Source of the DNA: Syntrophobacterales bacterium
GTDB taxonomy: Bacteria > Desulfobacterota > Syntrophorhabdia > Syntrophorhabdales > Syntrophorhabdaceae
DNA: 64,000 bases
NCBI GenBank assembly: GCA_031274925.1
Contig: JAISPL010000057.1
Location: 1-64,000, forward strand
Direction: 5' to 3'
Below the pieces are notes generated by a model, which had not been told where the DNA came from, did no database searches, and saw only the letters and a list, made by a program, of their open reading frames with translations. Each line of letters starts with the position of its first letter. Positions within the stretch are counted from its first letter, which is position 1. This document shows positions 14,285 through 16,609 of the stretch, in pieces. The position numbers and the translations under genes were made by a program.

Positions 14285-15946
14285 TTACTTGTTGGGAGTC
14301 AGAATGACGTGAGCCCTTTTGCCTACTTCCGCTTCAATGACAGCCCTGTCCTCGTTAACATAGTAGGTGACTACCTCTCCGGAGAGCCTGTCATGGCCTT
14401 GGTAGACCACTACGTTCCCCTTGAGTATGATCTCCCCTTTCTTATTGTCGAAGATTGCTTCACTTGACGTGGCGGTACGCTCCTTCTTCACGATTTTCAC
14501 ATTTTGCCTGGCATACGCCCTTTCGATCTCGTTTGACGTATCGTTCAGGTGGGCCTCAATAATATCGGCAAAAATATAAAGATCTTCCTGTTTTGCAATC
14601 ACATTTCCCCTAAATACCACATATTTCTCTTTATCGAAGCCTTCCATGCTGTCCGATACTATATCGACAGGCTTGCTCTTGTCGAAGAAGTCAAGATCCT
14701 TCTTCTTGTCTTTTTCATCAGATTTTGGTTTTTCAGCCTCTTTCGTTTCTTCCGGGCTGACCTTTTTCTTGTCTGTCACAGGTTTAGGTATCTCCTCCTG
14801 GTACATCTTTGGGGTCAGCAATATGGTATCCCCAGGTTTTTTATCTTGGACCTCTTCGGCCGGTCGTGTACGGTCGAGTTTTGCCATTTGCGGCCCCGGT
14901 TGAGGTGGCTCGACATGATCGGATCCAGAAGGGTCATGCCGTATAAGCTCGGCGTCAAAGGCCCCAGGCTCTGCTATTGCAGGTGTTGGGGGCTGAGAGG
15001 CGATGACAGGCTCGTCGGTCCTAGATGATCCGGATGCAGTCTGTGAATCGGGTTGTTGAGCCGTTGGCTCTCCCGGTTGGGTGGGTCTGTCGATCTCCTC
15101 CGGTTTGGCTGTCTGCGCAGGTTCGTCTGTCTTTGCCGACTCAGGCTCAGCCACGGGATTCAACCGCTTTCTCTTTATCCCCTGCGAACCGGCTGGTTGA
15201 GCGTTGGCAAGTTTCAAGGTCTTTTTCTCTCTGATTGTAGCCCGGGCATATACGCTCCTCGGAAACTGGGCCTTCAGCTTCTCCATGTAATAGTCGGCTT
15301 TTTCCGGATTTGCCAGTTCCTTGTAAGAACTGCTGATATAAAAGTATGCCTTGTCCGTCCCGGATGCATTGGGATATTTTTTGAGGAAATATTCGAGGCG
15401 CACGATGGCTGCATTATACTGGCTCGTTCTGTAATAGAACTCACCCACGTACAGCTCTCTGTCGGCCAGCTTCTGTTCAAGATGTTTCAATTTCTCGTCC
15501 ACCTGGCCCGCGTAATTGGTTCTGGGATAGCGATTCTTGAGGAAGGTATATTTTTCCATGGCTTTCAACGTGTTTGCCTGATCCCGGTCTACAGACAGTG
15601 AGAGCTTTTCATAACATTCCCCCAATCTGAACAGGACATACGGGGCATTCTCATCCTCCGGATGGGCGCCCACAAAACTGTCGTACACGCTCGCAGCTAT
15701 GACATGGTCTTTTTTCTCGAAGTGTGCGTCACCGAGTTTGACCGCTGCTACGAGGGCAAGGGGATCAAAGGGATAATCTTCTATTACCCCGTTGAATTTT
15801 TGGACTGCCTTGTCGTACTGTTTTGCCTTCATGAGGTTGACGCCTTCCACATATAGCTCGCCGGGACCTTGTTTCTTTGTCGGGGCGCTGGCACAGGCGG
15901 TCAGAAGAAAACACAGGGCAGCAATAACCAATAGTCTTTTCATCAC
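14285..15946 (-). CDS. BamD-LptA fusion lipoprotein
   Basis: 553 aa, more than twice the length of either family. Residues 1-18 are a lipoprotein signal with lipobox LTAC (Cys18). Residues about 28-240 are BamD/YfiO-type tetratricopeptide repeats (LYVEGVNLMKAKQYDKA, VLFRLGECYEKL, AYFYISSSYKELANPEKA). A Pro/Glu/Lys-rich linker of roughly 180 residues follows. Residues about 425-550 are an LptA/OstA jelly-roll domain (VDIVSDSMEGFDKEKYVVF, NVIAKQEDLYIFAD, GEIILKGNVVVYQG, LSGEVVTYYVNE). BamD helps insert outer-membrane proteins; LptA carries LPS across the periplasm. A single frame runs through both without a break. Confidence 0.88.
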   Translation of the reverse strand: MMKRLLVIAALCFLLTACASAPTKKQGPGELYVEGVNLMKAKQYDKAVQKFNGVIEDYPFDPLALVAAVKLGDAHFEKKDHVIAASVYDSFVGAHPEDENAPYVLFRLGECYEKLSLSVDRDQANTLKAMEKYTFLKNRYPRTNYAGQVDEKLKHLEQKLADRELYVGEFYYRTSQYNAAIVRLEYFLKKYPNASGTDKAYFYISSSYKELANPEKADYYMEKLKAQFPRSVYARATIREKKTLKLANAQPAGSQGIKRKRLNPVAEPESAKTDEPAQTAKPEEIDRPTQPGEPTAQQPDSQTASGSSRTDEPVIASQPPTPAIAEPGAFDAELIRHDPSGSDHVEPPQPGPQMAKLDRTRPAEEVQDKKPGDTILLTPKMYQEEIPKPVTDKKKVSPEETKEAEKPKSDEKDKKKDLDFFDKSKPVDIVSDSMEGFDKEKYVVFRGNVIAKQEDLYIFADIIEAHLNDTSNEIERAYARQNVKIVKKERTATSSEAIFDNKKGEIILKGNVVVYQGHDRLSGEVVTYYVNEDRAVIEAEVGKRAHVILTPNK

Positions 15947-15988
15947 GTAATTATAACAGAATGAAACATTTTATGCTACGCTTTATGG

Positions 15989-16609
15989 GTGAGATCCGAG
16001 GAAATGATAGCGGAAGGATTGGCTTTTTTCCACATTCCTTATGACGAAAAAGCCGTCGGAGACATTACTTTTTACGTAACCGAGCTTTCGAAATGGAACG
16101 ACCGGGTCAACTTGGTGGGCTACAAGGACATAAGGAATGTGGTCCGGGATCTTTTGTATGACGCCTTTTTTCTGTGGGGCCATACATGTGATAGCCTTAG
16201 GACCCTTGACCTTGGGTCGGGGTCGGGGATCATAGCCATCCCGCTCAAGATACTCTCTCCTGGAATGGAAGTGTATCCGGTGGATCGAAGTCTCAGGAAG
16301 ATTCAGTTTCAGCGGCATATAAAGAGAAGTCTGCAGTTGGAGGGGTTCTTCCCGATACACGGGAGAATCGAAGAGGTGGAACCGCTTATGGTGGACAGCG
16401 TAGTGGTAAAGGCTTTCGGGGCGATTCCTGCCATACTGGAAATGAGCGAAAGGCATCTTAATGAGGCGGGAAGGGTATTTATAGTGAAGGGCATGGCCGA
16501 GGAGGCTGTGAGGGCCGGAGGGTTTGCCCTGGAAAGTGTTGTCCCGTATACGCTCCCTGGAAGCGGCAGGAGATACCGAATGTTTGTGTACAGGAAAGAT
16601 GGTTGTTAG
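15989..16609 (+). CDS. rsmG: 16S rRNA m7G527 methyltransferase
   Basis: 206 aa. The RsmG layout is clear: KWNDRVNLVGYKD before the fold, then the SAM-binding loop LDLGSGSGIIAIPLKIL (about 73-89), and a VVVKAFGAIPAILE strand. It methylates G527 of 16S rRNA. The start is GTG at 15989; an ATG six codons in (16004) is possible. In most bacteria rsmG follows mnmE-mnmG; here it is upstream of rpmH and divergent from the BamD-LptA gene, with only 42 bp between them. Confidence 0.88.
   Translation: MRSEEMIAEGLAFFHIPYDEKAVGDITFYVTELSKWNDRVNLVGYKDIRNVVRDLLYDAFFLWGHTCDSLRTLDLGSGSGIIAIPLKILSPGMEVYPVDRSLRKIQFQRHIKRSLQLEGFFPIHGRIEEVEPLMVDSVVVKAFGAIPAILEMSERHLNEAGRVFIVKGMAEEAVRAGGFALESVVPYTLPGSGRRYRMFVYRKDGC

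Follow-up and report, generated by a model that had tools for sequence, protein, structure and literature searches.

According to the textbook account, the linking element of the LPS bridge, LptA, is soluble, and BamD is a free-standing subunit of the Bam machinery. E. coli LptA (YhbN; structures 2r19 and 2r1a) and Pseudomonas LptH (4uu4) each possess a complete OstA jelly roll, and the E. coli protein is soluble and periplasmic. E. coli BamD (YfiO; 5d0o chain D) and the BamD of Rhodothermus marinus (3qky) share a lipoprotein signal and a full-length TPR fold, with the E. coli protein being a stand-alone polypeptide of 245 residues. Work on the two systems has tied residue R197 of E. coli BamD to BamA-BamD coordination (PMC6529637), has demonstrated that E. 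coli BamD touches strand 24 of LptD during assembly (PMC6887485), and has shown that the N-terminal region of LptA contacts LptC while the C-terminal region contacts LptD (PMC3944529). A covalently fused BamD also exists in 5efr, a BamA-BamD fusion engineered for crystallisation; however, that protein is man-made and remains inside one machine, whereas the BamD-LptA protein described here is natural and spans two. The open-access papers searched contained no account of either fusion, BamD-LptA or LptC-LptA, as a natural protein, and an initial sequence-only reading had likewise not known BamD-LptA as a described system; domain-architecture databases may nonetheless list the combination uncommented.

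The bamD-lptA gene occupies positions 14285..15943 on the minus strand of the window (the whole 64,000-nucleotide stretch analyzed, from a member of the Syntrophorhabdales), where it forms a single uninterrupted open reading frame of 552 amino acids plus a stop codon; all features given below lie on the same strand. This length assumes the ATG at 15943. A GTG at 15946, with which the sequence-only reading had begun the gene (14285-15946), is an alternative start; the frame itself stands, and the ATG is the likelier start because relatives begin there. Residues 1-16 (15896..15943) constitute a lipoprotein signal peptide, with the lipobox LTA ahead of C17, a cysteine that is invariant in 28 Syntrophorhabdales sequences. 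Reading from the sequence, the mature N-terminus is C17 and residue +2 is alanine, without the aspartate of the inner-membrane retention signal, and the LTA|C junction and the +2 alanine together predict sorting of the lipoprotein to the outer membrane. Directly ahead of the start codon is a stretch conserved in nearly all loci of the order (L006-L035), TAGCATAA-N-TTCTGTTATAAT/ACT, at window positions 15944-15990. It includes the -10-like element TATAAT (15950..15955), 12 bases ahead of the ATG, and in 28 of 30 loci of the order a hexamer of this kind starts 11-14 bases upstream of that codon. This arrangement suggests that the transcript has little or no leader and that the gene shares its promoter, back to back, with rsmG.

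Following the signal peptide, the protein consists of a BamD domain of TPR helices (residues 17-235; 15239..15895), a disordered linker (residues 236-417; 14693..15238), and an LptA domain with the OstA jelly roll (residues 418-552; 14288..14692). AlphaFold2 assigned a pLDDT of about 97 to the BamD half, below 50 to nearly the whole linker, and mostly 85-94 to the jelly roll. The BamD model TIGR03302 matched residues 2-233 with 194.6 bits (cut-off 81.4), covering profile positions 1-238 of 239, and PF13525 matched the same half with 108 bits (cut-off 25). In Foldseek comparisons, the BamD half was superimposed on E. coli BamD (5d0o_D) with a target-normalized TM score of 0.91, and the alignment placed R182 of the fusion as the counterpart of E. 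coli R197. This position is invariant in 36 of 36 aligned fusions, and a gene for BamA, the BamD partner, is present in the window’s own genome. What distinguishes the protein from E. coli BamD is the addition of the linker and the LptA domain.

The LptA half was likewise recognized by both profile and structure. PF03968 matched residues 429-533 with 65.7 bits (cut-off 20.4), TIGR03002 gave a borderline match to residues 421-552 (68.0 or 71.7 bits in two runs, against a cut-off of 71.7), and the jelly roll, which is complete from first through last strand, was superimposed on E. coli LptA (2r1a_E) with a target-normalized TM score of 0.87. Unlike the E. coli protein, this LptA domain has no signal peptide of its own and is fixed to a predicted outer-membrane lipoprotein. 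It is also better conserved than any other part of the fusion: among 28 sequences from the order, mean pairwise identity was 70.7% for LptA, 65.6% for BamD, and 34.5% for those stretches of the linker that were aligned. In the window’s protein the linker comprises 182 residues, of which 26 are proline, 22 lysine, 20 glutamate, and 17 alanine. Taken as a whole, the architecture proposed from the letters of the DNA, namely one frame with a lipobox, BamD-type TPRs, a Pro/Glu/Lys linker of 180 residues, and an LptA/OstA jelly roll, was borne out in each part, with neither half failing its profiles.

The search for separate bamD and lptA genes began with the window’s own genome (2.06 Mb, 97% complete), where the LptA/OstA profile matched only three genes, encoding BamD-LptA, an LptC with an LptA-like domain, and LptD. 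The BamD profile revealed no second BamD in this genome beyond the fusion, bar a short match resembling an L,D-transpeptidase. That weak YfiO match, on contig C35, was read from its sequence as an L,D-transpeptidase-like protein containing a TPR stretch and was rejected as a second BamD. The sample was then 46 genomes of the order Syntrophorhabdales (Thermodesulfobacteriota), representing 19 genera and three families. BamD scored above cut-off in 43 of these, and in all 43 the LptA domain lies in the same frame; of the other three genomes, one has the gene cut at the start of a contig and two lack both halves, exceptions that look like assembly gaps. A free-LptA model (A4) run over the 46 genomes at E up to 0.1 scored 98-154 bits on the BamD-borne domain (the lowest value coming from a truncated copy) and 36-67 bits on the LptC-borne domain, and it also matched LptD. 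Neither a free LptA gene, with this model and threshold, nor a separate BamD was found in the 46 genomes. Separate full-length genes, which the sequence-only reading had named as evidence against itself, are not seen, and the survey of relatives that it had called for traced the fusion through the order and, beyond it, into no fewer than seven further families of the phylum.

The machinery on either side of the fusion is largely in place. BamA was found in 44, LptF/G in 45, and LpxC in 43 of the 46 genomes, and LptD is present in most of them. LptE matches, all weak, occurred in 40 of 46, and LptE was not detected in the window’s own genome with PF04390. These results bear on two alternative explanations. 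It might be proposed that two neighboring genes were merged by a sequencing or binning error, given that metagenome bins make up the majority of the named genomes. However, the same frame and domain order recur in 43 assemblies from the three families of the order, and in other families besides, so an artefact is vanishingly improbable, the independent assemblies being numerous enough to refute it. Alternatively, the LptA domain on BamD could be an OstA-like accessory that binds another lipid or partner outside of LPS export, since the OstA-type jelly roll is a general fold. This is very improbable: the domain fits the LptA models best of any in the genome, another complete LptA is absent, and genes for LPS export, along with LpxC, are in place.

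The second LptA-like domain is found at the canonical lpt locus. In other families of the phylum, this locus reads kdsA-kdsD-(kdsC)-lptC-lptA-lptB-rpoN, while in Syntrophorhabdales the lptC-lptA slot is filled by a single open reading frame of about 300-330 residues, encoding LptC with an LptA-like domain directly behind it. Such an LptC is present in 44 of the 46 genomes. The copy in the window’s own genome (G000:C42, L002), whose gene lies between kdsD and lptB, has the transmembrane helix and jelly roll of an LptC but differs from it in the extra LptA-like jelly roll that directly follows and in the missing separate lptA gene; AlphaFold2 predicted one transmembrane helix and an unbroken run of strands. 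Judging from its position, the ancestral lptA appears to have become fused to lptC. While the sequence-only reading identified the BamD fusion correctly, it missed both this second LptA-like domain and the spread beyond the one genome. From its gene content, the order would thus seem to have only tethered forms of a bridge protein that E. coli makes in soluble form, one on LptC at the inner membrane and one on BamD at the outer membrane.

The anatomy of the fusion is firm, and from it we infer a mechanism. The explanation to which we lean, and which we consider somewhat probable, is that BamD-LptA fills the place of bamD and is at the same time the principal lptA, in this organism and throughout its order, anchoring the last segment of the bridge beside LptD. 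The BamD part would belong to the Bam complex, alongside BamA. The LptA domain on its tether would make two contacts, docking with its C-terminal edge on the N-terminal jelly roll of LptD and with its N-terminal edge on the far, C-terminal end of LptC-LptA in the inner membrane, such that a trans-envelope LPS bridge would be closed from membrane-anchored pieces alone. The tether would also hold LptA near the site of LptD folding; in this way the bridge and LptD assembly would be coupled, and a diffusing periplasmic LptA would not be needed. In favor of this explanation are the scores of both halves above family cut-offs and their confident folds, the failure to find a separate BamD or LptA among the 46 genomes, the free-LptA model scoring the BamD-borne domain far above every other LptA-like domain of the order, and the strong conservation of that domain. 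The tether joins LptA on its N-terminal side, leaving the LptD-facing C-terminal edge free, and a linker at the short end of the range (about 45 residues, some 16 nm when extended) would, as we estimate from the dimensions of the chain, still reach a neighboring LptD. It is because of this reach, the free C-terminal edge, and the R197 equivalent that BamD-LptA is taken to be an outer-membrane anchor. Two ideas had been raised at the outset, that the tethered LptA is brought near nascent LptD or that it acts as a swinging shuttle, and both appear compatible with the anatomy; the presence of the neighboring jelly rolls, those of LptC-LptA and LptD, makes a bridge segment likelier than a shuttle. 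One point against the bridge-anchor explanation is that Bam complexes may far outnumber Lpt bridges, in which case most of the tethered LptAs would have nothing to do.

Features of the linker are not all explained by a plain tether. Across the order its length ranges from 45 to 192 residues, while the flanking domains are constant in length, and a KKRxIxLxP motif (searched as a regular expression) occurs in 33 of 35 linkers of the order. In the window’s protein this motif includes TILLTP at residues 373-378 (14810..14827), and in the order alignment (A1) I374 and L376 are invariant and P378 is nearly so. A more than fourfold spread in length combined with a conserved motif counts against the bridge-anchor explanation in its simplest form. 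As a candidate function, the motif was considered as a self-capping copy of the LptA C-terminal strand, and this was rejected, as the strand profile scored no higher on it than on shuffled linkers. A signal-peptide-like stretch ahead of LptA was looked for in the linkers of the order and none was seen, so LptA should enter the periplasm solely within the fused protein. The fusion could nevertheless be a precursor, with a periplasmic protease cutting the linker to free a soluble LptA and the covalent link having no lasting role. A long, disordered, and poorly conserved linker would suit such processing, as would an order without any other source of free LptA, but a known cleavage site is not evident in the linker, which never falls below about 45 residues and retains its one conserved motif (although the motif could itself be the processing site). 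On this evidence, a precursor is quite improbable. As a separate observation, fusions from families f11 and f44 (L102-L106, L180, L184) contain a well-conserved segment, GPGLPLLFMARDYF...YLTTTFxPExYSPRL, inside the linker directly after BamD, and it looks like an extra BamD element.

Beyond the order, same-frame BamD-LptA was found in 24 of 148 genomes of the phylum, comprising the order and families f10, f11, f15, f23, f26, and f44. A 25th genome (G053, family f13) carries a BamD with a strongly diverged LptA-like end (L113; PF03968, 37.5 bits) and retains a free LptA; with it, fusions occur in at least seven families outside of Syntrophorhabdales. A free LptA accompanies the fusion in 17 examined genomes outside the order. 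The largest fusions there, L094 (G102) and L095 (G066) of family f23, are open frames of 873-953 amino acids with long Ser/Gln/Pro linkers and about 250 more residues past the LptA domain. A reduced LptA tree places the fused domains in one group (support 86/92), separate from the free LptAs that the same genomes carry; three LptAs from families f36 and f70 also fall in this group. A single fusion clade was not rejected in this tree (p-AU 0.491) and was neither shown nor rejected in the BamD tree (p-AU 0.154). The neighborhoods of fused genes differ among families, and unfused BamD genes often adjoin trxA/trxB. One ancient fusion followed by losses is plausible, and multiple origins are possible. 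In what is plausibly the simplest history, a duplicated LptA joined BamD early and, in Syntrophorhabdales, the other LptA later attached to LptC. Canonical-locus LptAs with about 270 extra N-terminal residues occur in families f36 and f70 (L141, L142, L143, and L153) and also at L069, L083, and L092; in them, a signal peptide precedes a FlgO/CsgG-like domain (PF17680, E 0.0012 in L142). By its predicted domains, this FlgO/CsgG-like LptA is a different LptA fusion.

Because relatives outside the order keep a free LptA, the fused copy there may have another task. The same fact, which makes the fused copy an addition in those families, lends some weight to another proposal, that the BamD-borne LptA is a docking chaperone or checkpoint acting on the N-terminal jelly roll of LptD and carries no LPS, with LptC-LptA alone spanning the periplasm. 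The near-universal LptC-LptA of the order (44/46 genomes) would be available for that role, and BamD does contact LptD in assembly (PMC6887485). Within the order, however, it is the LptC-borne domain that is the more diverged (36-67 vs. 98-154 bits), whereas the BamD-borne domain is complete and strongly conserved, and we regard a docking checkpoint as unlikely.

In the fullest form of the bridge-anchor explanation, the LPS bridge of Syntrophorhabdales would have no diffusible part: an LptB2FG/LptC-LptA half would meet an LptD/BamD-tethered LptA half in the periplasm, and Bam and Lpt would form a covalently linked supercomplex, with LptD staying beside its Bam complex. This fuller picture is tentative, a real possibility that we stop short of calling probable. 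For weighing bridge against shuttle models in E. coli, the fusion also supplies a design ready for use: an LptA tethered to the outer membrane, with a length that can be adjusted. For the organisms themselves, domain architecture suggests that Bam and Lpt, two supposedly independent machines, are physically coupled in this order. Every LptA detected there is covalently attached to LptC or BamD, suggesting that a diffusing LptA is dispensable. As such, the lineage is a natural test of whether Bam and Lpt work next to each other, and of the number of jelly rolls needed to span the periplasm.
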